From the NCBI GenBank assembly GCA_949788275.1, contig OX460916.1, forward strand, positions 1,736,001 through 1,800,000: DNA of 64,000 nt, written 5' to 3'. Shown here one piece after another: positions 8,756 to 33,903 of the stretch. The DNA is from Weeksellaceae bacterium. Its GTDB lineage: Bacteria; Bacteroidota; Bacteroidia; Flavobacteriales; Weeksellaceae. Every line of letters begins with the position of its first letter. Position 1 is the first letter of the stretch. Under the pieces are notes generated by a model, which was not told the origin of the DNA, ran no database searches, and saw nothing but the letters and a program-made list of their open reading frames with translations. The position numbers and the translations under genes are program-made.

Positions 8756-8792
8756 TTAGTAAATAATGACGAAACGAATTGTGACCTGAAAC
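8756..8792. repeat. 37-bp dispersed repeat, copy 2
   Basis: Exact second copy of the sequence at 4560-4596. Here it runs directly into the ACTAAATTAAACC unit that also ends the 17-bp tandem array near 18270, and then into structured element A1. The copy therefore marks a junction of three repeat types. Confidence 0.9.
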
Positions 8793-8801
8793 TAAATTAA
8801 A

Positions 8802-8957
8802 CCTCGTTCATATTCTATGTTCTAAAAGAACATAGAATATGAACGAGGTTGTGGCAAGGATAGCAGCGGCATCCTTTGCTGCCACCTTTACTTCCCATAG
8901 ACCGAGATGCTCTTGCAGCAAAGATAGAGCGGATAGCGTGGCGCGGAGCGGCCACCC
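8802..8957 (+). repeat. Structured intergenic element, type A copy 1 (A1)
   Basis: The element opens with a perfect 22-bp inverted repeat with a 3-nt loop (8802-8848). A structured core follows: an outer stem GTGGC (8851-8855) with GCCAC (8951-8955), a GGATAGCAGCGGCATCC segment, an inner stem CTTTGCTGC with GCAGCAAAG, and an AGAGCGGATAGC segment. A2 (18272-18427) is nearly identical and A3 (62701-62857) shares the core. It separates two convergent genes. From memory it resembles short structured RNA motifs scattered through Flavobacteriia, such as the flavo-1 motif; that link is unverified. It may be a REP-like repeat, an RNA, or part of a terminator. Confidence 0.8.
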
Positions 8958-8995
8958 AAAAAAAATGCTGAATAAGATGAATTCTTATCCAGCAT
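8958..8995 (-). terminator. Intrinsic terminator of the 168-aa secreted protein gene
   Basis: On the minus strand a 12-bp stem (ATGCTGGATAAG with CTTATTCAGCAT, one G-U pair) is followed by eight T. It lies just past the stop at 9021 and touches the 3' end of element A1. A2 has the same arrangement next to purM. Confidence 0.85.
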
Positions 8996-17990: not shown

Positions 17991-18000
17991 TTTAGAAAAT

Positions 18001-18271
18001 TAAACCTTAAACTAAATTAAACTTTAAACTTATTAAACTTTAAACTTATTAAACCTTAAACTAAATAAACCCTAAACTAAATTAAACCTTAAACTAAATA
18101 AACCTTAAACTAAATAAACCCTAAACTAAATTAAACCTTAAACTAAATTAAACCTTAAACTAAATTAAACCTTAAACTAAATTAAACCTTAAACTAAATT
18201 AAACCTTAAACTAAATTAAACCTTAAACTAAATTAAACCTTAAACTAAATTAAACCTTAAACTAAATTAAA
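18001..18271. repeat. 17-bp tandem repeat array, about 16 units
   Basis: The unit TAAACCTTAAACTAAAT is repeated head to tail. The distal units (18001-18060) are degenerate and those nearest element A2 are perfect, a gradient typical of arrays that expand from one end. A single partial unit (ACTAAATTAAACC) precedes element A1 at 8791-8803. There are no spacers, so this is not a CRISPR. Confidence 0.92.
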
Positions 18272-18427
18272 CCTCGTTCATATTATATGTTCTAAAAGAA
18301 CATATAATATGAACGAGGTTGTGGCAAGGATAGAAGCGGCATCCTTTGCTGCCACCTTTACTTTCCATAGACCGAGATGCTCTTGCAGCAAAGATAGAGC
18401 GGATAGCCTGGCGCGGAGCGGCCACCC
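18272..18427 (+). repeat. Structured intergenic element, type A copy 2 (A2)
   Basis: Nearly identical to A1, with the same 22-bp hairpin arms (18272-18318) and core. One base change in the left hairpin arm relative to A1 (TTCTATG to TTATATG) is matched by the compensating change in the right arm, so pairing is kept. The outer GTGGC/GCCAC stem is also kept. It lies directly downstream of the purM terminator hairpin. Confidence 0.82.
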
Positions 18428-18464
18428 AAAAAAAATGCTGAATAAGACGAATCCTACCCAGCAT
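18428..18464 (-). terminator. Intrinsic terminator after purM
   Basis: On the minus strand a 12-bp stem (ATGCTGGGTAGG with CTTATTCAGCAT, three G-U pairs) is followed by eight T. The A1 copy of this hairpin differs by bases that keep pairing through G-U. It would end the purC-purF-purM transcript here and separate it from purN. Confidence 0.85.
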
Positions 18465-18484: not shown

Positions 18485-19474
18485 TTATTTTAAAACGATT
18501 TCATCGTCACCTGTTGTAATTTCGCCGATTAGCGCACTGCCTTCGACGGCTTTTAAAACGGCTTCTACGTTTGATTGTTCAACAACAACGATCATTCCGA
18601 CACCCATATTGAAGGTACCGAACATTTCGTGTTCTGCGATGTTACCACGTTTAGCTAATTCTTGCATAACGGTTGGAACTTGAATCGCAGCTTTATGAAT
18701 AACCGCCATTAATCCTTTTGGTAAAATACGGGGAACATTTTCGATTAATCCACCCCCAGTAATGTGGGCGATTCCAGAGACATCGGCAACAGCCTGGATG
18801 GCTTCAATATCTTTCTGGTATAGTTTTGTTGGCACCAATAAGGTTTCAAACAAAGGTTTTCCTTCAAATTCTTCTTGAAAATCGGTGAAGATACTGCGAA
18901 CCAAAGAGAATCCATTGCTATGAAAACCGCTTGAAGGTAAGGCGACAATGGCCTGACCCGCTTTGATTTTCGATCCATCGATAATTTCATCCCGTTCAAC
19001 AACGCCTACACAAAATCCGGCAACATCATAATCGCCTACTTTGTACATTCCTGGCATTTCGGCTGTTTCGCCTCCGATAAGAGCCGTACCCGTTTCTTTA
19101 CATGCTTTCGCAATTCCAGAAACGATTTCAGCAGCGACATTCGAGTCTAATTTTCCACAGGCTAAGTAATCTAAGAAGAACAAAGGTTTTGCACCATGGC
19201 ATAAGATATCGTTTGCACACATGGCAAAACAATCTATACCTACGGTATCATATACTTTTGCGTCTAAGGCAATACGAAGCTTAGTCCCTACACCATCGGT
19301 TCCCGATACCAATACGGGGTTTTTATAGCCGCTTAATTGGTAAAAAGCACCAAAACTACCCAGTCCATTTAAGACATTGTCGTTGTGTGTTTCGGCAACG
19401 GCTTGTTTTATTTTTGACACCGTTTGGTAACCTTCTTCCTTATCTACGCCAGCTTTTTTATATGTGTTGCTCAT
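18485..19474 (-). CDS. purM: Phosphoribosylformylglycinamidine cyclo-ligase (AIR synthetase)
   Basis: PurM closes the imidazole ring of FGAM to AIR using ATP. The 329-aa protein starts MSNTYKKAGVDKEEGY, has the GTDGVGTKL ATP-site segment (about residue 60), the DCFAMCANDIL block, the LIGGETAEMPGMY motif (about residues 136-148) and GGGLIENVPR near residue 240, all as in the family. It is the last gene of the purC-purF-purM run, 61 bp after purF, and is followed by a strong terminator at 18428-18464. Confidence 0.97.
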   Translation of the reverse strand: MSNTYKKAGVDKEEGYQTVSKIKQAVAETHNDNVLNGLGSFGAFYQLSGYKNPVLVSGTDGVGTKLRIALDAKVYDTVGIDCFAMCANDILCHGAKPLFFLDYLACGKLDSNVAAEIVSGIAKACKETGTALIGGETAEMPGMYKVGDYDVAGFCVGVVERDEIIDGSKIKAGQAIVALPSSGFHSNGFSLVRSIFTDFQEEFEGKPLFETLLVPTKLYQKDIEAIQAVADVSGIAHITGGGLIENVPRILPKGLMAVIHKAAIQVPTVMQELAKRGNIAEHEMFGTFNMGVGMIVVVEQSNVEAVLKAVEGSALIGEITTGDDEIVLK

Positions 19475-19535: not shown

Positions 19536-21026
19536 TTAAATAATGACTTCTGGTATTTTTTGCGTATAATTTACAGGATATTCTTCTGTAAAACATCCAA
19601 AGCAATGGTTTTTAGACCCTAATAAATCGGTTAAACTATCGACTGATAAGAAATCTAAACTATCGACATCGAGGTATTTTTCGAGTTCTTTAATCGACAT
19701 ATTTCCGGAGATTAAATCGTCTTTACTCGGCATATCGATTCCAAGATAACATGGAGCGATAATGGGCGGCGATGCGCTACGGAAATGAATTTCTTTGGCA
19801 CCCGCTTCTTTCAAGATTTTAATCAGCAGTTTACTGGTGGTTCCACGAACAATGGAATCGTCTAAAATAACCAATCTCTTCCCTTTAATGCGGTTAGCAA
19901 TCGGGTTGAGTTTAAGGTTCACAATGCGCTCTCTCATTTCTTGAGAAGGTACAATAAACGAACGGCTCATATAACGGTTTTTTACCAAAATGGGTTCAAA
20001 AGGAATACCTGATGCTTCTGAATAGCCAATAGCCGAAGGCACCCCAGAATCGGGAACACCAATCACTAAATCGGCTTCTACAGGCGATTGTTCGTATAAT
20101 TTCTTACCGCTTTCTACGCGTAAGTCGTAGATTTCTTTTCCTTCGATGCGTGAATCGGGACGGGCAAAGTAAATGTACTCAAAAGCACAAATGCGACGCT
20201 CGGCCGTTTCTAATAACGAATACGAATGAAGTCCATCTTTATCGGCGACTAAGATTTCACCCGGTTTTACATCGCGGATAAATTTAGCACCAACCGCATC
20301 TAATGCACAGGTTTCTGAACAGAAAACATAAGAACCATCATCTAATTGACCTAAACACAATGGGCGGATTCCGTGAGGATCGCGAAAAGCAGCCAATGAA
20401 TCTTTGGTTAATACAAGAACAGAAAATGCGCCTTTAATTCGCTTAGTTCCTTGTTGAATGGCTTCGTGTAGAGGTAAATCACAAAATTTTTGAATAGAAC
20501 GAAGCATAACTTCAGAATCGGATGTCGCTAAAAAAGGTAGACCTTCTTCTTCCAATTCTTTTCTTAAATCGTCAATTTCGATCAGATTCCCATTATGGGC
20601 TAACGAAAAATGAGGTTTTCCATAGTAATTAACGGCATAGAGCGGTTGAATATTACGTCGGCTTCCCCCTCCGGCTGTTGTATAGCGCGTATGCCCTATA
20701 GCCGCATTCCCTTGAAAATCTTCAATATGCTCGATGCCTTTAAACACATCGAGCACTAAACCAGAGCTTTTAATGGTTTTAATAGTCCCATTTTTTGCTA
20801 CTGAAACACCACAAGCCTCTTGACCGCGGTGCTGCAAAGCAAATAAGCCAAATTGTGCAATGGAATAGGTCGCGATATTATGCGGCGCATACACGCCAAA
20901 AATACCACATTCTTCATTCACTGAATCGACCATATCTTTCTCTGCTTTCTTCAACACATTGCGTTGGTAAAACTCGGTTAGATACTGTGCCTTTAATTGG
21001 CTTTTAATACGTTGATGGTTAATCAT
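19536..21026 (-). CDS. purF: Amidophosphoribosyltransferase
   Basis: PurF commits PRPP to purine synthesis by making phosphoribosylamine from glutamine. The Ntn glutaminase Cys is in EECGIFGVY, followed by FALQHRGQEACG; the PRPP loop is VILDDSIVRGTTS (about residue 370); the ending keeps GCFTEEYP. The start is uncertain. The first ATG (21026) lies 17 bp after purC, which suits coupling, but puts the nucleophile at Cys39. A second ATG at 20933 (MVDSVNEECGIF) places it 7 residues after Met, closer to the short propeptide of other PurF proteins. Cleavage before Cys is expected. Feedback by nucleotides is known for the family. Confidence 0.95.
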   Translation of the reverse strand: MINHQRIKSQLKAQYLTEFYQRNVLKKAEKDMVDSVNEECGIFGVYAPHNIATYSIAQFGLFALQHRGQEACGVSVAKNGTIKTIKSSGLVLDVFKGIEHIEDFQGNAAIGHTRYTTAGGGSRRNIQPLYAVNYYGKPHFSLAHNGNLIEIDDLRKELEEEGLPFLATSDSEVMLRSIQKFCDLPLHEAIQQGTKRIKGAFSVLVLTKDSLAAFRDPHGIRPLCLGQLDDGSYVFCSETCALDAVGAKFIRDVKPGEILVADKDGLHSYSLLETAERRICAFEYIYFARPDSRIEGKEIYDLRVESGKKLYEQSPVEADLVIGVPDSGVPSAIGYSEASGIPFEPILVKNRYMSRSFIVPSQEMRERIVNLKLNPIANRIKGKRLVILDDSIVRGTTSKLLIKILKEAGAKEIHFRSASPPIIAPCYLGIDMPSKDDLISGNMSIKELEKYLDVDSLDFLSVDSLTDLLGSKNHCFGCFTEEYPVNYTQKIPEVII

Positions 21027-21043: not shown

Positions 21044-21766
21044 TTACTTAAGTACTTCTTTTAAACGATTGTAAACTTCGTGGTAAGCTTCTGAAACTCC
21101 CCCTAAGTCGCGACGGAAACGGTCTTTATCCAATTTCTCCCCCGTTTCTTTGTCCCAAAGGCGACATGTATCGGGTGAAATTTCATCGGCTAAGATGATA
21201 TTCCCATCGACATCTTTCCCGAATTCGATTTTAAAATCGGCCAGGATTAAGTTCGCTTTTAAGAACAATTCTTTTAAAGCTTCGTTAATGGTGTCGGTCA
21301 TGGCGTACACTTCTTTCAACTCGTCATAGGTAGCGGCTCCTAAAAGCACTGCGTGATGATCGTTGATCAAAGGATCACCTAAACCATCGTGTTTATAACA
21401 TAAGTCGAAAATAGTAACCGGACATTTCCCTCCTTCTTCTAAACCTAAACGTTGCGCCATACTCCCAGCGACATAGTTTCTTACAACCACTTCTAAAGGT
21501 AAGATACTGACCTTTTTCACCAATTGTTCGCGTTCGTTTAAGGTTTCGATGTAATGTGTTGGAATTCCTTTTTGAATTAGATATTCAAAAATCAACGTCG
21601 AAATTTTGTTGTTCATTTCGCCTTTGTCTTCCACCGTTCCACGTTTTTGAGCGTTAAAAGCGGTTGCATCGTCTTTGTAGTAGACGATAACTTTGTCAGC
21701 TTCTTCAGTTGAATAAACCTGTTTTGCCTTCCCTTCGTAAATGAAGTCTTTTTTTGTTAAGCTCAT
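21044..21766 (-). CDS. purC: SAICAR synthetase (phosphoribosylaminoimidazole-succinocarboxamide synthase)
   Basis: PurC joins aspartate to CAIR with ATP. The 240-aa sequence has the family start [20 protein letters not shown], the DDATAFNA loop, the [20 protein letters not shown] block (about residues 85-104) and the signature [15 protein letters not shown] near residue 190. It is the first gene of the purC-purF-purM run. Its upstream spacer (21767-21990) is strikingly rich in TTTG/TTTGT words (AAAC on the coding strand), as at purN. No clear riboswitch is visible here. Confidence 0.97.
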
Positions 21767-22050: not shown

Positions 22051-25000
22051 CTATTTAAAATAATTAACGGCATTTTTAAAGATGTTCATATAGCTTGCGT
22101 CAGGAATATTCTTAAACAAACCTTCTTCAAAACGCTCTGGGTGCCCCATGCGTCCGTACACTTTCCCACAAGGGCTAACAATTCCTTCAACGGCCCATGT
22201 TGAACCATTGGGATTGTAAGGCATCTTACCGGCTAACTGCCCTTCTAAATCGACATATTGGGTAGCGATTTGTCCTTTCTGAATAAGATTATCCAATTCG
22301 TCTTGGTTGGCCACAAAACGGCCTTCACCATGCGAAAATGGCAACCAATATTCTTGCCCCTCCATCCCCGCTAACCAAGGAGAATGAGATTTGTTCACGC
22401 GAACTTTACACAATTGTGTAATATGACGACCAATCTCATTAAAAGTCAATGTCGGCGTGAATTCGTTTAATTCTTGAATGCGTCCATAAGGCAGTAAACC
22501 CGATTTAATTAAGGCTTGGAATCCATTACAAATTCCCAAAACCAAACCATCGCGTTTTAATAAATTATGAATGGCATCTTTTATTTTTTCGTTTCTTAAA
22601 ACCGTGGCAATAAATTTCCCCGAACCATCTGGCTCATCGGCTGCAGAGAATCCACCTGGAATAAACAAGATATTAGCTTGGTTAACGGCTTCTGCGAAGG
22701 CATCGACCGACTCTTCAACATCTTGGGTCGTTAGGTTTCTAAACGGAATTGTTTTCACAATAGCGCCTTCTCTGCGAAAAGCTTTAGCCGAATCGTATTC
22801 CGAGTTTGTTCCTGGAAAAATAGGAATAAACACTTTCGGCATGGTTGTTTTATGTTCCACAAAAGGATAACACACCTGGTCCACACTTAAAGTCTTGTCT
22901 TCAACAACAGTTTCAGTGGTCGATTGATAAGGGAATAAGTTGTTAAACGTTGCTTTCCATTGGCGTTTTAATTCGTTGGCGTCGATTTCAATTCCATTGA
23001 AATTGAACACATTGTTTTCAGTGGTTTGTCCAATAAGGTGGAAATTCGCTTGAATGGCTGCAGGCACAACTAAATCACCAGTATAACTCATCACGATAGC
23101 CCCAGGATAGTATTTCGCTAAATCGAGTTCCGTCGCTAACGACACCCCTATTTCATTACCAAAAGCCATATTTGCAACCGTTTCAGCAATTCCACCAAAT
23201 TTAACAGTCATCATGGCCTCTATATGTTCGCGGTTAAGACCTTCAATAAAATGAAAGATCGCTTTCACATTGGTTTCATCCAATAAATAATCCGGTGCTT
23301 GGTTGGGAATAAAAACAGCCAATTGGGTGTTTGCTTTTGGGAATGTACCCGCCACTACACGATCGATATGCGATGGTGCAACAGCAAAGGAGATTAATGT
23401 AGGTGGCACATCGATATCTTGGTAAGAACCACTCATGGAATCTTTACCTCCAATGGCTGGAATACCAAATTGGCGTTGCGCCTCAATCGTACCTAAGATC
23501 GCAGCAAAAGGTTTTCCCCATCGTTGAGCTTCATCTCTTAGTTTTTCAAAATACTCTTGAAAAGTCAAGCGAATATCGGCGTAATTTCCACCAGCAGCCA
23601 CAATTTTTGTCATTGAATCGATTACTGCAAAGTAACCACCGTGGTAATTCGACCAGCGAGAAACAATGGGGTTGTAACCAAAAGAAGCCATTGAAACAGC
23701 ATGGGTAAAACCATCGGTTGGAAATTTCTGTACCGAGACATCTTCAGGAGAATCCATTGTTTTTCCGCCAAAAGCGTTTAAAACCGTGCTTCTTCCTACA
23801 TTATTATCAAATAATTCGACCATCCCTTTTTGAGAGGCATGGTTCAAAGATTGCATCATTTCAATAAACGCTTCTTTAGTGAAGGCTTTATTTTCGAAAG
23901 GATTGCTATATTTTTCGGTGACCACCTCCACTTTCGCAGATTTGCTCACTCCATTGGTATCTAAAAAAGAGCGATCTAATTCAACAATCTTAGTCCCTTT
24001 CCAGGTTAAGATCATTTTTTCATCCGCTGTTACATCGGCCACGCAAGAAGCCAATAAATTTTCGGCTTTCGCCAATTCTATAAATCGTTCTACATCCTTC
24101 GCGTCAACGGCAACTGCCATACGTTCTTGAGATTCAGAAATAGCCAATTCAGTACCATTCAATCCGGCATATTTCAACGGTACTTTATCCAAGTCGATGT
24201 TAATTCCTCGGGCAATTTCACCAATAGCAACAGAAACCCCTCCTGCTCCAAAATCGTTACACTTTTTAATTAAAGCCAAGACTTCTGGGTTACGGAAAAG
24301 GCGTTGAATTTTACGTTCAACAATCGCATTCCCTTTTTGCACTTCAGCCGAAAGATCGTCTAATTTCAAACCGTCATGGGTTTTCGATGAGCCCGATGCT
24401 CCACCAACACCATCACGCCCAGTAGCACCACCCAATAAAATAATTTTATCGCCAGCTTGGGGTTCTTCTCGGCGTACGTAAGCTCTTTTAACCGCTCCAG
24501 CCACAAAACCCACTTCCATGCGTTTCGCTTTATAGCCTTCATCGTAAATTTCTTTCACCAAGGTTGTCGCTAACCCAATTTGGTTACCGTAAGAGCTATA
24601 GCCATTTGCAGCCTCTCTTGTAATCTTACGTTGAGGCAATTTACCAGGCAACGTATCTTCAATTTTCTCTAACGGATTAGCCGCACCCGTAACGCGCATG
24701 GCTTGAAAAACATAGGCACGTCCACTCAAAGGGTCACGGATAGCTCCACCCACACAGGTAGAAGCTCCACCAAAAGGTTCCACTTCCGTTGGATGATTAT
24801 GGGTTTCGTTTTTAAACTGCAACAACCATTCTTCTTCCACACCATCTACATCAATGGGAACAACAATCGAACACGCATTAATTTCCTCCGATACGTCAAT
24901 ATTGGTTACTTTACCTGTTCTCGACAAGTATTTCCCCATAATCGTTGCCATATCCATTAGGCGAATCGGTTTTTTAATGCCCAATTCTTCACGAATACGA

Positions 25001-25767
25001 AGGTAGTAATCAAATGTTTTCTGAAGCGTAGCCTTAAAATCGGCATTGAATTGGATATCGGTAATTTCAGTTTCGAAGGTGGTATGTCGGCAGTGATCCG
25101 ACCAGTAAGTATCCAACACCTTTAGTTCGGTATCGGTTGGATTGCGGTGAACCGATTTAAAGTATTCTTGAATAAACAATAAATCGTCCATTTCCATCGA
25201 CAACCCATAGGTTTTAAAGATCTCAGTTAGTTCAGCTTCATTAGCAGTTACAAACCCTTCGATAATAGGCACTTCAGTAGCCGTCGGATTAGTTCCAATT
25301 TCTAATTGCGCTAAATCTTTTTCTCTCGATTCGATGGGGTTAATTAAATACGCCTTTACTTTGTTTAGCTCTTCGGCCGAAATTTCATTAAAGACATACA
25401 ACAAGCCCGATTTTACTGTGACATCTTCCACATTCATTAACACCAAACATTGCTCGGCCGAATCATCGCGTTGATTGTATTGTCCTGGTAAATATTCCGA
25501 TGCAAAAAATACGGTAGTTGCTTTATCGCTTTCAGAAAAAGCCCCCGCTAAAGCCTCGTCTAAATTCGCATACACGATATCGGTAACAGGATCCGCAAAG
25601 ACCTTATTTTGTGTGTATTGCAATTGTTCGTCGGCACAATTAAAAAGGTCATAAATAACAAAAACCTTGCACACAATTGTAGGTACAAGGTTTTGTAATT
25701 CTATCGTAGTCTTCTGACTGATAACGTCAAAATTTGATTTCTTCTGAATAAAAAGTCTGTGGTTCAT
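22051..25767 (-). CDS. purL: Phosphoribosylformylglycinamidine synthase, single-chain (FGAM synthetase)
   Basis: PurL converts FGAR to FGAM using glutamine and ATP. The 1238-aa chain is the large single-chain type. An amino-terminal substrate-channel domain is followed by the AIR-synthase-like ATP domains (SDHCRHTTFETEI near residue 220, KNETHNHPTEVEPFGGASTCVGG near 320, GGATGRDGVGGASGSS near 445). The C-terminal class-I glutaminase has FIPGGFSAADE, the nucleophile in LGICNGFQAL and its His in GHPERFEEG. The ATG at 25767 (MNHRLFIQKK) is preferred; the longer in-frame start is a TTG inside the leader hairpin. The gene has its own promoter and a purine-aptamer-like leader, so repression by guanine or hypoxanthine is likely. 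Confidence 0.97.
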   Translation of the reverse strand: MNHRLFIQKKSNFDVISQKTTIELQNLVPTIVCKVFVIYDLFNCADEQLQYTQNKVFADPVTDIVYANLDEALAGAFSESDKATTVFFASEYLPGQYNQRDDSAEQCLVLMNVEDVTVKSGLLYVFNEISAEELNKVKAYLINPIESREKDLAQLEIGTNPTATEVPIIEGFVTANEAELTEIFKTYGLSMEMDDLLFIQEYFKSVHRNPTDTELKVLDTYWSDHCRHTTFETEITDIQFNADFKATLQKTFDYYLRIREELGIKKPIRLMDMATIMGKYLSRTGKVTNIDVSEEINACSIVVPIDVDGVEEEWLLQFKNETHNHPTEVEPFGGASTCVGGAIRDPLSGRAYVFQAMRVTGAANPLEKIEDTLPGKLPQRKITREAANGYSSYGNQIGLATTLVKEIYDEGYKAKRMEVGFVAGAVKRAYVRREEPQAGDKIILLGGATGRDGVGGASGSSKTHDGLKLDDLSAEVQKGNAIVERKIQRLFRNPEVLALIKKCNDFGAGGVSVAIGEIARGINIDLDKVPLKYAGLNGTELAISESQERMAVAVDAKDVERFIELAKAENLLASCVADVTADEKMILTWKGTKIVELDRSFLDTNGVSKSAKVEVVTEKYSNPFENKAFTKEAFIEMMQSLNHASQKGMVELFDNNVGRSTVLNAFGGKTMDSPEDVSVQKFPTDGFTHAVSMASFGYNPIVSRWSNYHGGYFAVIDSMTKIVAAGGNYADIRLTFQEYFEKLRDEAQRWGKPFAAILGTIEAQRQFGIPAIGGKDSMSGSYQDIDVPPTLISFAVAPSHIDRVVAGTFPKANTQLAVFIPNQAPDYLLDETNVKAIFHFIEGLNREHIEAMMTVKFGGIAETVANMAFGNEIGVSLATELDLAKYYPGAIVMSYTGDLVVPAAIQANFHLIGQTTENNVFNFNGIEIDANELKRQWKATFNNLFPYQSTTETVVEDKTLSVDQVCYPFVEHKTTMPKVFIPIFPGTNSEYDSAKAFRREGAIVKTIPFRNLTTQDVEESVDAFAEAVNQANILFIPGGFSAADEPDGSGKFIATVLRNEKIKDAIHNLLKRDGLVLGICNGFQALIKSGLLPYGRIQELNEFTPTLTFNEIGRHITQLCKVRVNKSHSPWLAGMEGQEYWLPFSHGEGRFVANQDELDNLIQKGQIATQYVDLEGQLAGKMPYNPNGSTWAVEGIVSPCGKVYGRMGHPERFEEGLFKNIPDASYMNIFKNAVNYFK

Positions 25768-25784
25768 TGCGTTTCTTTGTTCAT

Positions 25785-25806
25785 TATAAAAATACAAAAT
25801 TTGTAT
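25785..25806 (-). terminator. AU-rich hairpin plus U-run in the purL leader (candidate expression platform)
   Basis: On the minus strand ATACAAA / TTTGTAT forms a small hairpin followed by a run of five T (TTTTTATAA). Its 5' arm (ATACAAAT) can pair over 8 bases with the P1 5' strand of the aptamer (ATTTGTAT), so P1 formation would free this arm to make the hairpin. That fits a ligand-induced OFF switch. The stem is all A-U apart from one C-G pair, hence weak. Confidence 0.5.
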
Positions 25807-25871
25807 GGACTCTCAACAAAGAAATTTGCTTCCTCATGGAACAACAAGGCACATGAAAAAGGAAAAAACTT

Positions 25872-25938
25872 CATTTGTAGAGGCAAATTTAGGGGCTGCC
25901 GTAGAGACGCTCAACCGTATTATGAGCATATACAAATG
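25872..25938 (-). promoter_or_regulatory. Purine riboswitch aptamer (guanine-type by C74)
   Basis: The 67-nt minus-strand sequence folds as a purine aptamer. P1 is a perfect 8-bp stem (CATTTGTA / TACAAATG). P2 is GCTCA/TGAGC with loop TAATACGGT, keeping the GG of L2. J2/3 is GTCTCTAC, keeping the UCUAC core that holds U47 and U51. P3 is GGCA/TGCC with loop containing CCCTAAA, keeping the CC that pairs with L2. The base before the P1 3' strand is C (position 74), which specifies guanine or hypoxanthine. Differences from the B. subtilis xpt aptamer are a junction one or two bases shorter at P2 and U at position 73. The purL leader location, 104 nt before ATG, strongly supports the call. Confidence 0.85.
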
Positions 25939-25981
25939 TTGTAAACTTTAAAAACTAAATCACTCTTTTACAAGTGAAGTG

Positions 25982-25989
25982 CAAAGGTA
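25982..25989 (-). promoter_or_regulatory. Promoter -7 element of purL (TACCTTTG)
   Basis: A perfect match to the Bacteroidota -7 consensus TAnnTTTG lies 43 nt upstream of the aptamer, giving an expected transcript start near 25974. The -33 position has only TTC, with 21-nt spacing. The leader would be about 200 nt. Confidence 0.6.
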
Positions 25990-26226
25990 AGTATCTTTCT
26001 TTAATTTCCCGAATGAATGCTAAATAATTATTAAGTTTTTTACCTACTAAAATTCTAAAAAAAACAATCCTAAGCAAACCCTCTGTTTATCAGTAGTAGA
26101 AACGAGTTTAAACCCCTGTTAAATCTTGTTTTTTTATTTCAATGAACCCCCACTAACCCTTCATTTGATTCCGTAAAGCCAAAAATGCGTTAAAAAAGGA
26201 ATTCCTACACCTATAAAATTAATGGG
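25990..26226. other. Spacer between the purL promoter and element B1
   Basis: AT-rich, no open frame with coding character, no RNA gene recognised. It contains the -33 region of the purL promoter. Confidence 0.6.
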
Positions 26227-26359: not shown

Positions 26360-27028
26360 CTAAGGTAACTGATTAAAATAATCATCATCCACAATAATGG
26401 GAGCCATTTCAACTCCTGCACTCCATAAATGCCATTGTCCACCACCTGTCTGAGGCGTTCCTCCTCCATACACCCACAAAAACGATTTCGGGGGTTTTGT
26501 GGTTGGAAAAAGGCCATTCTCAATTTCAGAAAATCCAATAGTGCCGATATAAGGATGTTTAACATATTTAAAAGGGGGGAATTCGACCGTACCTAAAAGT
26601 GGTAAAATAAATGTTTTTTCTTGATGACTCAACTCCAAAACGCCCATAGGCGTATCATTCACCAAGGAGTTTGCAATCAACACTCCTTTTCCCATGCTGG
26701 TTGTCAGGTTGTCAGAGGGAAGAATAACAGAGGTCGGTAATCCAGGAGTCAACGCCACATATTTAGCCATACCCAAATCGTCGGCTTCGGTCCACATTTT
26801 AACCTGCCTACCCGAGCGACTTGTGAAAATCACGCCACCCTTCTGATGGTTATTTTCCGTGGATGCATCTTTTATAATCGGTAAGATTACCCCCATATTT
26901 TCAGAAGTAAATGATAGAATTGCCTTTTCATGCTCTTTCGACGAATCAGCATCAGGTCCTACAATCAATTGAGCGTTTAAAATTCCACTCAACATAAAAA
27001 AACTAAATAAGCCGTGTATATATTTCAT
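26360..27028 (-). CDS. Secreted 222-aa protein paired with beta-helix protein (copy 1)
   Basis: A signal peptide (MKYIHGLFSFFMLSGILNAQ) is followed by two copies of the LLP module: AILSFTSENMGVILPII...GVIFTSRSGRQVKMWTE, then GVLELSHQEKTFILPLL...GTIGFSEIE...WVYGGGTP...WHLWS. The paralogue at 31286-31954 has the same length and about half its residues in common. Each lies 3-7 bp after a beta-helix gene, so the two products are probably made together and may act together at the cell surface. There is no known enzyme motif and no cysteine pattern. Function unknown. Confidence 0.8.
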   Translation of the reverse strand: MKYIHGLFSFFMLSGILNAQLIVGPDADSSKEHEKAILSFTSENMGVILPIIKDASTENNHQKGGVIFTSRSGRQVKMWTEADDLGMAKYVALTPGLPTSVILPSDNLTTSMGKGVLIANSLVNDTPMGVLELSHQEKTFILPLLGTVEFPPFKYVKHPYIGTIGFSEIENGLFPTTKPPKSFLWVYGGGTPQTGGGQWHLWSAGVEMAPIIVDDDYFNQLP

Positions 27029-27035
27029 TTCAATT

Positions 27036-28877
27036 TTATTTTTTAATATTTTCTAAAATATCGTAAAGAGAAACATCACAACCTTTGGTCAGACAATCCC
27101 ATTTTTCACCATTAAAAAGCATCAAACATTTCCGGGCAGTATCATAGGCCAACGCTCCTTTCAACGAAGGGTCTAAGCCTAAGGTCTTAGCAGGATTATT
27201 AACACGTGTCACCATAAATGGTTTCGAGTTAGACTCGAGAACCATTGCGCCATTGTTTATAGAATTACCATCATTGTCCACAGAAGGCCATCCTTCAGCT
27301 TGTTTTTTAAACGTAGAAATCCCCATTTTGGAAATTTTAGCCACGGCTTGTTCACTGTCATCCACTTTAAAACATCCGACCCCACCTGAATAACAATCGA
27401 TAACAAGATCACCTGGCTTTAGCCCCATCACGTCATTTTCAGAACTGTTAAACGTATTTCCTTGTCCTGTACTAATTTTTGATGCAATTAAGGAATTCCC
27501 ACTATAGGCAGCTGCATTAGGAAGTTGGAACGTATTCTCTGTAATGGATTCTATATTGTTACCATTTGTAACTTTCAGTTCAATGTAGGGGTCAAGGGCA
27601 TCATTTCCATTTTTATTACCATAAAAAACATTTTTCGAAAGATTCCTTATATTATTCCCTCTCGTTTGTATAACAGCCAATTGCCCTGTACGCGTTTCGT
27701 TATAAGCAAAAACATTCCCAATGATATCATATTTATTTGCAGAAATACTTGAAGCACCTGCACTAAAAGAAATAGCACTACCACCAGACCCAGTTGTATT
27801 CACTTTATTTTCGTAAAAGTAGTTCCCTTTAATATGGTTTGTTGTTAATATACTTCCAACACCAACTGTTCCTTCGATAGCGATGGCTCCTCCAGCCCCA
27901 ACTCCTGTGTTAACAGTACTATTTTGTATAAAAAAATTATCTTCAATTTGAATACCTCTTGCTGCTGTAGCAAAAATGGCACCTCCATAATTTTTACCCT
28001 GAACGCCTAAAAACACATTGTTCCGAATTAAGGTATTCCCGGCGGTTGTTAAATAAATACCGCCCGTTGTTGAGCCCGCTGTTCCACAAGAAAAAATATT
28101 ACCAATGATATAAAATCTCGCCCCACTTGTAGTAGAACTCCCAGCCGTTGTTGCATAAAACCCTGTACCATCCAAAGAAGAGCCTTCTCCAAATAAATTA
28201 TTACTAATTAAAACTTTCACATCACCATTAACCGTTGTATATTCAAACCCTCCCGTAGCACCCATGGTATTTCTATAAAATTTATTGTTATGCATCCAAT
28301 GCGTTACTTTACCTGAATTAGCAGTTGCTAAGCGGATCATTGCAGAACCACTACGGGAATCATGAAAGACACAATCCTCAATTTTTAATTGGATGTATTT
28401 AGCCGATGTACCTTGTTGATTTATTACATTACCAGAGACTGTAAGAGTGCCTGTACTTTTAAAATACAGTCCCTTGACGGTTAGTTTATTGTTATCAAAA
28501 TCATTGGAAGTTGTGGTGATTTGAACAAATCGTTTGTTCGCTGGTTTTACGATTCTGGTAATATACATCTCTGGATTGTATTGAGATAAGTCCGTACCCG
28601 TTGATGTTTCCGAAAAACCTCCTTGAATGAGCACTTCATTTCCAGTATAACCATAGGTTGTACTAAAATTATAATCGCCCTCAGCAATGTAAATGCGTAC
28701 ATTATTTAAAACGCGAGTATCTTCTAGAGCGTCAACAGAAAAAGCAGTTGGTAAATCTGGTAAAGCATTATCCCAAGAAGATCCATTACCTGTAGCCCCT
28801 TTTTTTATATAAAAGGTTGTTTGCCCACTAAGGAAAGTAACAAAACATAAAAATAAAATGAGTTGAATTTTACGCAT
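27036..28877 (-). CDS. Secreted right-handed parallel beta-helix protein (copy 1)
   Basis: The 613-aa protein has signal peptide MRKIQLILFLCFVTFLSGQ. The mature start is FYIKKGATGNGSSWDNAL, the usual opening of Bacteroidota surface beta-helix proteins. Residues about 40-450 contain repeated coils with N-x-F/Y turns (IRNNVFLGVQGKNYGGAIFAT, IEDNFFIQNS, IIGNVFAYNE). A conserved DCYSGGVGC loop and the C-terminal module MVLESNSKPFMVTRVNNP...YDTARKCLMLFNGEKWDCLTKGCD follow. Beta-helices of this type bind or cut polysaccharides, but no catalytic site is recognisable, so adhesion is equally possible. It is co-oriented with, and 7 bp before, the 222-aa partner. Confidence 0.88.
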   Translation of the reverse strand: MRKIQLILFLCFVTFLSGQTTFYIKKGATGNGSSWDNALPDLPTAFSVDALEDTRVLNNVRIYIAEGDYNFSTTYGYTGNEVLIQGGFSETSTGTDLSQYNPEMYITRIVKPANKRFVQITTTSNDFDNNKLTVKGLYFKSTGTLTVSGNVINQQGTSAKYIQLKIEDCVFHDSRSGSAMIRLATANSGKVTHWMHNNKFYRNTMGATGGFEYTTVNGDVKVLISNNLFGEGSSLDGTGFYATTAGSSTTSGARFYIIGNIFSCGTAGSTTGGIYLTTAGNTLIRNNVFLGVQGKNYGGAIFATAARGIQIEDNFFIQNSTVNTGVGAGGAIAIEGTVGVGSILTTNHIKGNYFYENKVNTTGSGGSAISFSAGASSISANKYDIIGNVFAYNETRTGQLAVIQTRGNNIRNLSKNVFYGNKNGNDALDPYIELKVTNGNNIESITENTFQLPNAAAYSGNSLIASKISTGQGNTFNSSENDVMGLKPGDLVIDCYSGGVGCFKVDDSEQAVAKISKMGISTFKKQAEGWPSVDNDGNSINNGAMVLESNSKPFMVTRVNNPAKTLGLDPSLKGALAYDTARKCLMLFNGEKWDCLTKGCDVSLYDILENIKK

Positions 28878-29023
28878 AACATCGTTTATTTAGATTAATC
28901 TTTACCACTCTCAATGAATTCAATTACGCTATTTTTAAAAAATAACACACTTAAAACCTAATAGAGTTTGTTGATTTATAAATATACAATTTGTTTTCAA
29001 TTCATTTTCAAATAATTACAATA

Positions 29024-29056
29024 GGGATTAAGGAAAATTAAATTTTCCTTAATCCC
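29024..29056. terminator. Perfect 16-bp hairpin between two beta-helix genes
   Basis: GGGATTAAGGAAAATT and its exact complement flank a single base. It lies 93 bp past the stop of the 29149-30978 gene, at the place where the other two beta-helix genes have a 222-aa partner. A long U-tract is missing on the minus strand, so it may be a processing or stabilising stem rather than a classic terminator. Confidence 0.55.
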
Positions 29057-29083
29057 CATTACCAGTGATCTCGTTACGAGAAA

Positions 29084-29103
29084 GTGTGTGTGTGTGTGTG
29101 TGT
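29084..29103. repeat. (GT)10 dinucleotide microsatellite
   Basis: Ten GT units lie in the 3' spacer 45 bp after the middle beta-helix gene. Dinucleotide runs of this length are uncommon in bacteria and prone to slippage. No frame is affected here. Confidence 0.9.
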
Positions 29104-29148
29104 ATTAACTTCCTAATTGTTTTTATTCATTTCTTTTATGTAGAAATT

Positions 29149-30978
29149 TTATTGGCGAATACCATCTAAACGATCAAGAATAGATGCTTCACAACTACTC
29201 ATTAAACAATCCCATCGAACCCCATCAAAAAAGGCTAAACAATTTTTAGACGTGTTATAAACGAGTGAACCTTTTAGCTTAGCGTCGGTTCCTAAAACTT
29301 TTTCAGGATTATCTACCCGAATCACAATCAACGATTTTTCATTGACCTCAACAATCATTATGCCTTGGTGACTGGAATTATTCAACAGATTTTTGGAAGG
29401 CCAATTTTCTTCTGTATTTCCAAAAGTAGAAATACCAATAGCAGAATATTCCGATGTGTTGCTCATCTTTTTATTCATCTGAATACAACCGAGGTCTAAT
29501 TTGTGACAATCTAGTGTAAAAGCGTCTGATTTAAGCTCCTTTAAATCTTTTATTGAACTACCGAAATCATTCCCTTTGGCTATTTTATAGCCTAAATTAC
29601 TCGCTTGATAATCTTCTGCTTTCCCCAACTGAAACTGGTTATTCTTCATCTCGTGAATATTCGTAGAAGAATAAGCACGAACCTCACTATAAACATCTAA
29701 AGTTCCTTTATCATTCGCATTTCCAAAAAACAGATTATCATTTAATTTATCGATATTATTTCCGCGGGTTTGAATGGACGCTTGACGCTCTGTCTTCGAA
29801 TTGTTATAAGCAAATACATTGCCGATAATATCATATTTATGGGCTGCATTAATGGGCGCAATTTCACTCATTGAAATGGCACTCCCACCATTGCGGGTCG
29901 TCTGTAAACTATTTTCATAAAAATAATTATTTTTAATATAATTCGATGTCAATAAACTACCACCATTCACATTACCAGCAATTGCAATGGCCCCACCGCC
30001 ACCTATTCCGAGATTAGTCGTGGTATTTTGTATAAAGTAATTATTCTCTATTTGAAGTCCACGGACATCATTGGCAAAAATTGCACCCCCATAGTTCTTC
30101 CCTTTAACACCTAAAAACTGATTGCTTTGTATACGAACATTTCCGGCAGCATTTAAATGAATTCCTCCTGTAGATCCACTGGCACTGCTACAAGAAAACA
30201 AGTTACCAATCAGGTAGAAATGGGTTTTACTCGATGTTGAGTTTCCTGCATTTGATGCATAGAAACCTGCTCCGTTCACCGCCCGACTCTCTTTAAAGAG
30301 ATTATTACTTATCAGTACTTTTACATCACCATTAAAAGAAGAATAATCGAAAATACCTGTTTCACCTAACTTATTGCCATAAAACTGATTGTTATGGATC
30401 CAATGGGTTACTTTTCCTAAATTAGCCTGTGTTAAACGAATCATTCCAGCACCACTTGCAGACTCATAGAATACACAATCCTCAATTTTAAGTTGAATAT
30501 ATTTGGCCGATGAACCTTCGTGATTGACGATGTTCCCAGAAACAGTTAGGTTTCCTGTACTTTTAAAGTAAAGCCCTTTAATTGTTAGCTGATTAATTTG
30601 AAATGTATTCACGGTAGAATATATATCGACAAACCGCATATTGGCTGGTTTTATAATTCTAGTAATATGGCGATTCGGATTATAACCTGATAGATCTTTT
30701 CCCTTTACCGTTTTAGGAAATCCCCCTTGAATTAAAACTTGATTCCCGAGATAGGCATAGGTTGAATTAAAATCATAATCCCCTTCTGCAATATAGAGAT
30801 GAACATTATCCAATGGTCTTGCCGTATTCGAACCTCCAAATAAAGCGGTGGGTATTTCACCCAATGCATTATCCCATGATGAACCATCTCCACTACCTCC
30901 TTTTTTAATAAAGTAATTGGTTTTTGCTGATACGAGCATTGAAAATAATAGTAGAAAAAGTAGAGCTATTTTTTTCAT
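29149..30978 (-). CDS. Secreted right-handed parallel beta-helix protein (copy 2, without partner)
   Basis: The 609-aa paralogue has signal peptide MKKIALLFLLLFSMLVSA. It shares the NYFIKKGGSGDGSSWDNAL start, beta-helix coils across residues about 40-450, the DCHKLDLGC loop and the C-terminal VIRVDNPEK...YNTSKNCLAFFDGVRWDCLMSSCE module with its three cysteines. It is the most diverged of the three and the only one with no 222-aa partner after it; that spot holds a hairpin and a (GT)10 run. A TATTTTTG promoter element lies about 98 bp upstream. No catalytic residues recognised. Confidence 0.88.
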   Translation of the reverse strand: MKKIALLFLLLFSMLVSAKTNYFIKKGGSGDGSSWDNALGEIPTALFGGSNTARPLDNVHLYIAEGDYDFNSTYAYLGNQVLIQGGFPKTVKGKDLSGYNPNRHITRIIKPANMRFVDIYSTVNTFQINQLTIKGLYFKSTGNLTVSGNIVNHEGSSAKYIQLKIEDCVFYESASGAGMIRLTQANLGKVTHWIHNNQFYGNKLGETGIFDYSSFNGDVKVLISNNLFKESRAVNGAGFYASNAGNSTSSKTHFYLIGNLFSCSSASGSTGGIHLNAAGNVRIQSNQFLGVKGKNYGGAIFANDVRGLQIENNYFIQNTTTNLGIGGGGAIAIAGNVNGGSLLTSNYIKNNYFYENSLQTTRNGGSAISMSEIAPINAAHKYDIIGNVFAYNNSKTERQASIQTRGNNIDKLNDNLFFGNANDKGTLDVYSEVRAYSSTNIHEMKNNQFQLGKAEDYQASNLGYKIAKGNDFGSSIKDLKELKSDAFTLDCHKLDLGCIQMNKKMSNTSEYSAIGISTFGNTEENWPSKNLLNNSSHQGIMIVEVNEKSLIVIRVDNPEKVLGTDAKLKGSLVYNTSKNCLAFFDGVRWDCLMSSCEASILDRLDGIRQ

Positions 30979-31075
30979 AATTCATAGATTGAGTTAAACT
31001 TTTTTTATTTCTGTTTGGAATACAACACTCCAAACCTTTCTTTGATCAATGACTAAATAGTCATTCACCAAAGTG

Positions 31076-31083
31076 CAAAAATA
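31076..31083 (-). promoter_or_regulatory. Candidate -7 element (TATTTTTG) of beta-helix copy 2
   Basis: A match to TAnnTTTG about 98 bp before the ATG at 30978, with TTA 20 bp further upstream as a weak -33. An AATGACTA/TAGTCATT palindrome lies in the leader just downstream. Copy 3 has the same octamer at a similar distance. Confidence 0.4.
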
Positions 31084-31285
31084 AAAGATGTGCTTAGGAT
31101 ATATAACCATCAACACTACTCAATACTACTCAAAATCATCAGGTTATTGGAAATTCATAGCAAAATTATTACCAAAAATATTTTGACAAGTTAAAAAGTA
31201 GAAAAAAGCACTGTTATTCCATAATTAATCAATAATCCATTGACCTAATAGATACCTAAATCTATTGTATCAATACCATTTATTT

Positions 31286-31954
31286 CTAGGGTAAATTATT
31301 AAAATAAGAATCATCGATAACCAAGGGGGGCATATCGACCTCTACACTCCACAGATGCCATTGTCCTCCTTTATTATCTCCTGTTCCACCACCAAAGACC
31401 CAAAAAAATTGTTTCGCTGGTTTCGAGTCTGGAAAAAATGGATTTTTAATTTCTGAAAATCCAATGGTCCCTATGGTAGGGTTCTTAACATATTTATGGG
31501 GTGGTCTATCCACATCACCAAGCCTAGGTAGAATTAACGTTTTCTGAGGATTGTTCAATTCTAAAACACCTTTGGATTGACTGCCTTCTACTGAAGTTCC
31601 TAACAACACACCTTTTCCAAGATCTCGCGATGGATTGGCTACAGGAAAGGGTGCAGTATATGGAAGTGAACTCGTTAATGAAATAAAACCAGCATTTCCT
31701 TCTCCATTGCCTTCAATCCACATTTTCACTTGTCTATCGGCTCTACTTGTGAATAATGCTCCAGGAATTTTTAAATTATCTTCCAATGCATGTGAATGGA
31801 TAATGGGCAAAATAATTCCCATACCTTGAGAAGTAAAGGACAAAAGTGCTTTTTCATTTTTTATTTCCAAAATAGAATCATCGCCAATAACAACTTGACT
31901 AAGTAGAAAGTTGGGTATTAAGCTTATTGTGATTCTTATAAGTAGCTTTTTCAT
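31286..31954 (-). CDS. Secreted 222-aa protein paired with beta-helix protein (copy 2)
   Basis: A signal peptide (MKKLLIRITISLIPNFLLSQ) precedes VVIGDDSILEIKNEKALLSFTSQGMGIILPI, the RADRQVKMWIE segment, LELNNPQKTLILPRLGDVDRPPHKYVKNP and a WHLWSVEVDMPP ending. It aligns end to end with the protein at 26360-27028 and starts 3 bp after the stop of the beta-helix gene upstream. The tight spacing and repeated pairing point to a joint function at the cell surface; none is known. Confidence 0.8.
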   Translation of the reverse strand: MKKLLIRITISLIPNFLLSQVVIGDDSILEIKNEKALLSFTSQGMGIILPIIHSHALEDNLKIPGALFTSRADRQVKMWIEGNGEGNAGFISLTSSLPYTAPFPVANPSRDLGKGVLLGTSVEGSQSKGVLELNNPQKTLILPRLGDVDRPPHKYVKNPTIGTIGFSEIKNPFFPDSKPAKQFFWVFGGGTGDNKGGQWHLWSVEVDMPPLVIDDSYFNNLP

Positions 31955-31957
31955 CGA

Positions 31958-33793
31958 TTATGGTTTAAGATTTATATTTTTTATTATATCAAAGATTGAA
32001 TAATCACATCCTTTTACTAAACAACCCCATTTTTCTCCATCGAAAAGCATTAAGCACCCTCTGGATGTATCATAAGCTAAAGCTCCTTTTAAATCAGGCG
32101 ATACTCCTAATGATTCTTCGGGATTATTTACACGGGTTACAATAAATGGTTTAGAACTAGATTCTAATACGATTATCCCATTATTAATTGATGTATGATC
32201 AAAATTTTCACTTGGCCAATTATTCGCTTGTTTCTCGAAAGTTGAAATTCCAATTTTTGAACTTTGAGCAACTCCTTCAATCCCACCCTCAATTGTTTTA
32301 GTACAACCAAGACTCGCTGATTCACAATCAAATAAAATATCACCTTCTTTTAACCCCATAATGGCATCTATCGAAGTATTAAAAACATTACCAGGCCCTT
32401 GTGCGATTTTACCGCCAAGATTATTTGATGAATAGGCTGATGCATTAGGCAGTTGGAATTTGTTATGGATAATAGCCTCTATATTGGAAGAAGAACTCGC
32501 TTTAATTTCACTGTGTGGATCAAGTACACCAAATTCATTTCTATTCCCGTAAAAAATATTATCCCTCAACATTCCAATATTATTGCCCCGTGTTTGAATC
32601 GCTGCTAGTTGACCATTATTGGACTTACTGTAGGCAAAAATATTTCCGATGATGTCAAATTTATTCGACGTTGTCGTAGCGCTAAACGAAATCGAAGCAC
32701 CTCCATACGTCCGGGTATTGATGGAATTTTCATAAAAAAAATTATTCTTAATCCAATTATTTTTAATGATACTACCGTTCTTAATGCCTCCTTCTACAGC
32801 AATTGCACCTCCAGCACCTGCAGCTGTATTTGAGGTGGAATTTTGAATAAAAAAATTATCTTCAATTTGAATTCCTCGGCTAGCGGTAAGGAAAATAGCA
32901 CCACCATAATTTTTTCCTTGGACTCCTTGAAAAATATTATTTTTTATCAAAGCATTTCCAGCAGTGGTAAAATAAATTCCTCCAGAGGTAGAGCCTGCAG
33001 TTGCACAAGAGAACACATTTCCAATGATATAAAACCGGGTTTGACTATTAGCTGAATTCCCTGCCGTCGTGGCATAAAAGCCAGTTCCATCTGTCGCATG
33101 GCTTCTTCCAAATAGGTTATTACTAATTAAGACCTTGACATCGCCATTCACGGTTGTATATTCAAATCCACCTGTGGCACCCATTTGATTACCATAAAAT
33201 TTATTTTTATGCATCCAATGGGTTACCTTTCCAGAATTACTCGAAGCTAATCGAATCATCGCAGATCCACTTCTCGAATCATGAAAGACGCAATCTTCTA
33301 CTTTCAACTGAATATACTTATCTGCACCTTGTTGATTAATGACATTGCCTGGTACAGTTGAACTCCCCGTACTCTTAAAGTGTAGCCCTTTTATCGTAAA
33401 CTTATTCAAATCAAAGGTTGGAGAAGTTGCTGTGGTTATGTTAATAAACCGTTTATTGGAGTTTTTCAGGATACGCGAAATAAATATTTCCGGGTTATAA
33501 TTCGACAAATCTTGTCCCGTCGAATGATTCGAAAAACCGCCTTGAATGACTACTTCATTCCCCGTATACCCATAAGTGGCGTTAAAATTATAGTCACCTT
33601 CTGCTATGTATATACGTACATTATTTAAAGGACGGGATGAATTACTCCCCCCAAAAACAGCGGTAGGAAGCTCGGATAAAGCATTATCCCAAGAAGTGCC
33701 TGTTCCAGTACCTCCTTTTTTTACAAAATAAATAGATTGCGAAAAAAGGAGAGAAGAGAGGAAGATTGAAAAAATTAAATAGAACTGTTTCAT
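31958..33793 (-). CDS. Secreted right-handed parallel beta-helix protein (copy 3)
   Basis: The ATG at 33793 (MKQFYLIFSIFLSSLLFSQ) gives a proper signal peptide; an 18-codon upstream extension is possible but has no secretory character. The 611-aa protein shares with copies 1 and 2 the YFVKKGGTGTGTSWDNAL start, beta-helix coils, the DCESASLGC loop and the YDTSRGCLMLFDGEKWGCLVKGCD ending. Copies 1 and 3 are closer to each other than to copy 2. The 222-aa partner follows 3 bp later. A candidate promoter is at 33904-33911. Confidence 0.88.
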   Translation of the reverse strand: MKQFYLIFSIFLSSLLFSQSIYFVKKGGTGTGTSWDNALSELPTAVFGGSNSSRPLNNVRIYIAEGDYNFNATYGYTGNEVVIQGGFSNHSTGQDLSNYNPEIFISRILKNSNKRFINITTATSPTFDLNKFTIKGLHFKSTGSSTVPGNVINQQGADKYIQLKVEDCVFHDSRSGSAMIRLASSNSGKVTHWMHKNKFYGNQMGATGGFEYTTVNGDVKVLISNNLFGRSHATDGTGFYATTAGNSANSQTRFYIIGNVFSCATAGSTSGGIYFTTAGNALIKNNIFQGVQGKNYGGAIFLTASRGIQIEDNFFIQNSTSNTAAGAGGAIAVEGGIKNGSIIKNNWIKNNFFYENSINTRTYGGASISFSATTTSNKFDIIGNIFAYSKSNNGQLAAIQTRGNNIGMLRDNIFYGNRNEFGVLDPHSEIKASSSSNIEAIIHNKFQLPNASAYSSNNLGGKIAQGPGNVFNTSIDAIMGLKEGDILFDCESASLGCTKTIEGGIEGVAQSSKIGISTFEKQANNWPSENFDHTSINNGIIVLESSSKPFIVTRVNNPEESLGVSPDLKGALAYDTSRGCLMLFDGEKWGCLVKGCDYSIFDIIKNINLKP

Positions 33794-33903
33794 CGTAAAT
33801 TTATTTTCAGTTGGTAGATTCATTTCATTTAACATAGGACAGAACATTCAAGGAGTCAATTATTCAATAATCACTACCTCAAGCTCTTACGTGTTTTCTA
33901 TCA

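Follow-up and report, generated by a model that had tools for sequence, protein, structure and literature searches.

Upstream of purL in a bacterium of the family Weeksellaceae lies an element that a first-pass annotation read as a purine riboswitch ending transcription when its ligand binds. The locus raises the question of whether this element truly belongs to the purine riboswitch class, which ligand it would recognize and at which step it would control its target. We addressed this question in the window, i.e., the whole stretch of 64,000 nucleotides that was analysed, and in samples of related genomes. The riboswitch adjoins genes of purine metabolism, purL being followed on the minus strand by purC, purF and purM. 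The features of the locus are:

25982..25989, minus strand: -7 promoter element TACCTTTG, read from the sequence and conserved in the genus alignment
25960..25977, minus strand: small stem-loop at the presumed 5' end of the leader, taken from the aptamer-enforced MFE structure
25872..25938, minus strand: core of the purine (guanine-type) aptamer, RF00167 (the model match spans 25955-25858)
22051..25767, minus strand: purL (FGAM synthase, long form), TIGR01857 with 1634.7 bits (cut-off 1057)
21044..21766, minus strand: purC, TIGR00081 above the NCBIfam cut-off
19536..21026, minus strand: purF, TIGR01134 above the NCBIfam cut-off
18485..19474, minus strand: purM, TIGR00878 above the NCBIfam cut-off

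We placed the start of purL at the ATG at 25767, since the resulting N-terminus, MN.R.FIQKK, is conserved among members of the genus. Relatives of this PurL with 80-81% identity are found in Chishuiella changwenlii, Empedobacter stercoris and two Faecalibacter species; Empedobacter is a member of the Weeksellaceae, Flavobacteriales. The promoter-like TACCTTTG that the first-pass annotation had pointed out at 25989-25982 is indeed present, and we take it to be a -7 element of the Bacteroidota type (motif TAnnTTTG). The corresponding stretch of the genus alignment reads TAATTTCG in leader L026. A stem at the position of the small stem-loop is also predicted in some relatives, with partly different letters.

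Other features of the window lie on both sides of these genes. A direct repeat of 214 nt occurs at 8772-8985 and 18242-18455 (94% alike), and two Flavo-1 RNA matches are located inside its copies (8849-8947 and 18319-18417). The 9.5 kb enclosed by the repeats include a reading frame of 2570 aa and lie between purM and, at 153-713, a gene that resembles purN by eye. At 17997-18308 we observed a tandem array of 15 overlapping in-register copies of a unit of ~17 nt (AATTAAACCTTAAACTA). Upstream of purL, on the minus strand at 26360-33847, similar gene pairs encoding proteins of 222 aa and about 610-630 aa are repeated.

It is nearly certain that the aptamer at 25872-25938 is a genuine purine riboswitch of the guanine type and a new member of this known class. 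The covariance search that had been proposed as a check on the predicted fold returned RF00167 at 25955-25858 of the window (cmscan, minus strand) with a score of 57.7 bits, above the gathering threshold of 37 (E = 2.5e-7). This is the single match to RF00167 in the whole genome, a single contig of 3,342,924 bases (E up to 0.001). The 8-bp P1 (25938-25931 with 25879-25872), the GG of L2, the CC of L3, the UCUAC of J2/3 and C74 were all found where the first-pass annotation had placed them. The junctions had been described as shorter than those of xpt, but they are canonical: in the covariance-model alignment J1/2 (UAU) has 3 nt and J2/3 (GUCUCUAC) has 8 nt, and both unpaired positions of J3/1 align as in the RF00167 model. 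The 3 nt of J1/2 set the window aptamer apart from the other 11 members of its genus in the alignment, which have 2 nt. P3 of the window aptamer is made of five pairs and a C-U mismatch. U24 and U73, the latter already recognized earlier, depart from the consensus of the model.

Conservation of the helices in relatives had been named as a further check. We aligned 31 aptamers, comprising 29 of the 33 matches found in the family (L016, L023 and the purL-proximal copies of G049 and G064 were omitted), one fusobacterial sequence and one from Erysipelotrichaceae. P1, P2 and P3 covary across these rows. Covariation over P1, P2, P3 and the loop contact reached 0.381, relative to 0.169 +/- 0.012 for shuffled data, and none of 500 shuffles attained the observed value; when the pairing partner was slid, covariation was 0.106 at most. 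Changes on both sides were observed for 16 of the 21 aptamer pairs, with 93.7% of the cells paired. The contact between L2 and L3 consists of two G-C pairs in all 30 distinct rows and, being invariant, does not covary.

Excerpts of PMC9295807 describe U22, U51 and C74 as contacting the ligand guanine. All three pocket residues are intact in the window aptamer, and guanine or hypoxanthine is therefore the expected ligand, in line with the earlier prediction of a C74 aptamer of the guanine/hypoxanthine type before purL. Position 51 is a U in 31 of 31 rows and position 74 a C in 29 of 31, the window aptamer included in both. A changed specificity, such as that of a 2'-deoxyguanosine or xanthine riboswitch, had also been considered, and the departures of U24 and U73 from the model consensus would be consistent with it. 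However, U22, U47, U51 and C74 are kept, and a variant specificity is unsupported since the junctions are canonical and U73 is present in 10 of 31 rows, that of the window among them. According to excerpts of PMC9295807, the xanthine-II class carries U51G with insertions in J2/3 and J3/1, and the guanine-II class an insertion in J2/3. These marks are absent from the window aptamer, where U51 is kept and J2/3 has 8 nt as in RF00167. The adenine type has U74 where the window aptamer has C74, and RF00167, rather than the 2'-dG-II family RF03165, is both the best model and the family reported at the locus. We give a changed specificity hardly any weight.

The strands of the leader that are predicted to exchange partners around P1, one of them overlapping a small hairpin, are:

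25930..25946, minus strand: strand A, the conserved 5' flank and the 5' strand of P1 (GUUUACAACAUUUGUAU), predicted to pair with strand C
25866..25878, minus strand: strand A', the 3' strand of P1 and the following bases (ACAAAUGAAGUUU), predicted to pair with strand B
25815..25824, minus strand: strand B, the U-rich switching strand (UUUCUUUGUU), predicted to pair with A' through 25827-25816
25793..25806, minus strand: strand C, resembling the 3' strand of P1 (AUACAAAUUUUGUA), predicted to pair with A when P1 is open
25772..25781, minus strand: strand D, A-rich and upstream of the purL AUG (AACAAAGAAA), predicted to be sequestered by strand B
25785..25806, minus strand: hairpin AUACAAA/UUUGUAU with U-run, earlier read as a terminator (-1.8 kcal/mol)

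Strand A is identical in 12 of 12 rows of the genus alignment, and strand D sits 5-14 bases before the purL AUG. The A'-B pairing appears when P1 is disfavoured and also in the unconstrained MFE structure of a slightly shorter piece of the window leader, which folds into the open state. When the window leader was changed from P1 disfavoured to aptamer enforced, the expected number of A'-B pairs fell from 9.2 to 0.5 and that of B-D pairs rose from 0.7 to 7.5. B and D form a 10-bp helix in a fold of -11.4 kcal/mol. The A-C duplex of this leader has an energy of -10.2 kcal/mol, and none of 200 shuffles was as good.

Duplex energies were then compared with 200 rounds of shuffling in 15 leaders (12 distinct leaders of the genus and three of a related genus). 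The mean for A-C was -11.73 kcal/mol, as against -6.06 +/- 0.49 for shuffled sequences (best round -7.59), which bears out the earlier suggestion that a downstream strand competes for P1. Means for B-D (-10.53 kcal/mol vs -6.58 +/- 0.47, best round -7.83) and A'-B (-6.15 kcal/mol vs -3.56 +/- 0.37, best round -5.35) likewise lay below every shuffled round. Taken singly, 13, 10 and 7 of the 15 leaders passed the 5% level for A-C, B-D and A'-B, respectively. B-D alone did little or no better than chance in L025, L026 and L027 (76, 70 and 38 of 200 shuffles) and was weak in G049b (29 of 200). A pair in the middle of B-D reads C-G in the window leader and G-C in the 14 others, three columns nearer the ends show a second pair type with both sides changed (in one, one and two leaders), and three columns alternate between U-A and U-G; because the 15 leaders are related, these changes represent few independent events. 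The mutually exclusive pairings are conserved in silico, and the modelled strand exchange, ending in a helix before the purL AUG, is common to the 12 leaders of the genus and the three of the related genus.

We estimated the accessibility of the purL start as the predicted unpaired fraction from -20 to +3, with the aptamer enforced or with P1 disfavoured. Enforcing the aptamer lowered this fraction in all 12 distinct leaders of the genus (duplicates L016 and L023 omitted), by 0.12 to 0.51 with a mean of 0.242, counts that are not independent because the sequences of the genus are closely related. With shuffled inter-regions the mean drop was -0.017 (sd 0.015, maximum 0.009, 25 rounds), and for each leader singly the observed drop was reached by 0 or 1 of 25 shuffles. 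Measured against the unconstrained ensemble, the loss of accessibility ranged from 0.09 to 0.50 and was seen in each of 13 leaders. In the related genus, L005b, the copy nearer to purL in a tandem pair, presented a drop of 0.35 (0 of 25 shuffles). Among 11 leaders from two further carrier genera, the drop exceeded 0.1 in L002, L004 and L009 only, the scored region being 3 bases longer in this test than in that of the genus. The remaining 8 showed no such drop, and a platform common to the whole family was not found.

The unconstrained MFE structure has P1 closed in 5 of 13 leaders, that of the window included, and open in 8; B-D is also formed in the five closed structures. The closed and open states, mutually exclusive in the model, are nearly isoenergetic; the model therefore does not give the state preferred by the free RNA, and its ligand-free state is not clearly ON. 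Neither the loop-loop contact nor cotranscriptional folding enters into these secondary-structure energies.

These models suggest that the guanine-type riboswitch probably represses translation of purL through an exchange among P1, B and D when guanine or hypoxanthine is plentiful. Ligand binding would keep P1 closed and leave strand B (25824-25815) available for pairing with the A-rich strand D (25781-25772); the resulting helix just before the start codon would block initiation. In the ligand-free RNA, B would take up the 3' strand of P1 together with the adjoining downstream bases, strand C (25806-25793) would capture the 5' strand of P1 and its flank, and strand D would be open, allowing purL to be translated. 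The genes purC-purF-purM behind purL would probably be repressed as well. An OFF response of purL to the ligand, as the first-pass annotation had also expected, is what the pairing logic and the usual behavior of the class point to; excerpts of PMC9295807 state that guanine riboswitches commonly lower the expression of purine genes when guanine is plentiful. As for the controlled step, excerpts of PMC6847099 report that, in Flavobacterium johnsoniae, the structure of the mRNA and adenines preceding the start codon modulate initiation, and that its phylum is without Shine-Dalgarno sequences. Control of this kind would be expected at a helix over the A-rich 25781-25772. Translational repression without a Shine-Dalgarno sequence appears likely, on these folding models, for the genus of the window and for one related genus. 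More tentatively, and with a little less than an even chance of being right, the full reading would be that of a native guanine riboswitch of Weeksellaceae acting on translation in a phylum that lacks Shine-Dalgarno sequences; in the free state both strands of P1 would be captured by two adjacent downstream strands, and a strand freed by the ligand would hide the A-rich start region needed by flavobacterial ribosomes.

Repression could instead be transcriptional, with a ligand-closed P1 freeing the hairpin and U-run at 25806-25785 as an intrinsic terminator. AUACAAA/UUUGUAU and the U-run are present as first described, the hairpin's 5' arm is able to pair with P1's 5' strand, and purine riboswitches of Firmicutes usually act by intrinsic termination. 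However, this hairpin has a single G-C pair and an energy of -1.8 kcal/mol, a scan of 25700-26100 requiring 3 G-C pairs returned no terminator-like site, and five consecutive U downstream of strand B and before the AUG occur in the window leader alone, being absent from 14 of the 15 leaders. We consider termination at this hairpin unlikely. A ligand-stabilized terminator might also be formed by the aptamer itself together with the U-run directly after P1, which is found in 12 of 12 rows of the genus alignment. This is quite improbable: P1 is rich in A-U, and in most of the 12 leaders the run pairs within the A'-B hairpin, which would explain its conservation. Finally, the riboswitch might act on the translation of a leader peptide that terminates over the purL AUG, since the window has a frame ending in TGA over this AUG that is open from the aptamer onward. 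The peptide is not conserved, however, and stops interrupt the frame in at least L014, L021, L025, L026 and L027 among the 13 leaders examined; we judge a leader peptide very improbable. Repression of purL translation by strand exchange is the reading that we retain as the most likely.

RF00167 was detected in all 14 genomes of the genus, upstream of purL in each of them. It is carried by 30 of the 246 genomes sampled from the family, which belong to 5 of the 33 genera in this sample. Larger samples, searched with stricter filters by which weak matches are lost, yielded RF00167 in 1 of 296 genomes of the order, which is the genome of the window itself, and in 5 of 395 genomes of the phylum, namely the same genome and four from one other family. 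That other family of Bacteroidota presents five loci, one of them reported as 2dG-II and four as RF00167 with 37.5-46.1 bits. PurL of the TIGR01857 type was identified in 241 of the 246 genomes of the family sample, compared to 30 with the riboswitch, and the presence of this purL therefore does not mark the carriers. A joint horizontal arrival of the riboswitch with a foreign purL was rejected on these counts. In a PurL tree of 43 rows, which included 7 of the 28 non-carrier genera, lacked genus g12 and had its outgroups on flagged long branches, carrier genus g17 clusters with non-carriers. A single ancestral riboswitch followed by losses is therefore as simple an explanation as repeated gain.

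Several other purine aptamers were observed in these samples. Two with U74 (adenine-type) both belong to genus g12 (L030 1501-1598, minus strand, and L024 1501-1598); in genome G011 of this genus, the next gene downstream of a U74 aptamer looks by eye like an EamA-type transporter (L081 4231-3242). RF00167 aptamers also occur as pairs before purL (L005 1284-1381 and 1501-1598; L077 3446-3545 and 7889-7987), spaced by 217 bases in G028, 4.4 kb in G049 and 5.2 kb in G064. The two aptamers of G049 are separated by opposite-strand reading frames, as if a tandem pair had been split. In the other family of Bacteroidota, the aptamers L031-L035 are related to 2'-dG-II, L032 matching RF03165 at 63 bits, and some of the downstream reading frames look by eye secreted- or nuclease-like.

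The window riboswitch shares with the guanine-I class (RF00167; xpt of Bacillus subtilis) the three-way junction, the GG/CC loop contact and the residues U22, U51 and C74. It differs in its flavobacterial host, in U24 and U73, in a P3 of five pairs with a C-U mismatch, and in a predicted platform that looks translational without a Shine-Dalgarno sequence. A partial literature search returned no report of a guanine-type riboswitch in Bacteroidetes, Flavobacteria or Weeksellaceae. A long-form purL is also preceded by RF00167 in Fusobacterium gastrosuis (L044 1095-1193, PurL of the TIGR01857 type) and in an Erysipelotrichaceae MAG (L046 569-670), whose PurL proteins are 49% and 48% identical, respectively, to that of the window over the best segment. 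The 2'-dG-II class (RF03165) is in the same clan as RF00167 and is matched by L032 of the same phylum. Excerpts of PMC8872408 place this class in Bacteroidetes and describe its J3/1 as carrying an insertion and its P1 as topped by a G-C pair, whereas the window aptamer matches RF00167.

The add adenine riboswitch of Vibrio vulnificus carries U74 and is an ON switch that controls translation initiation by occlusion of the Shine-Dalgarno sequence. The window riboswitch has in common with it a purine aptamer and, as predicted here, control at the initiation of translation, but it carries C74, is predicted to be OFF and would act on an A-rich start region. If this platform is true, it would constitute a natural, ligand-controlled test of structure-gated initiation where Shine-Dalgarno pairing is unused.
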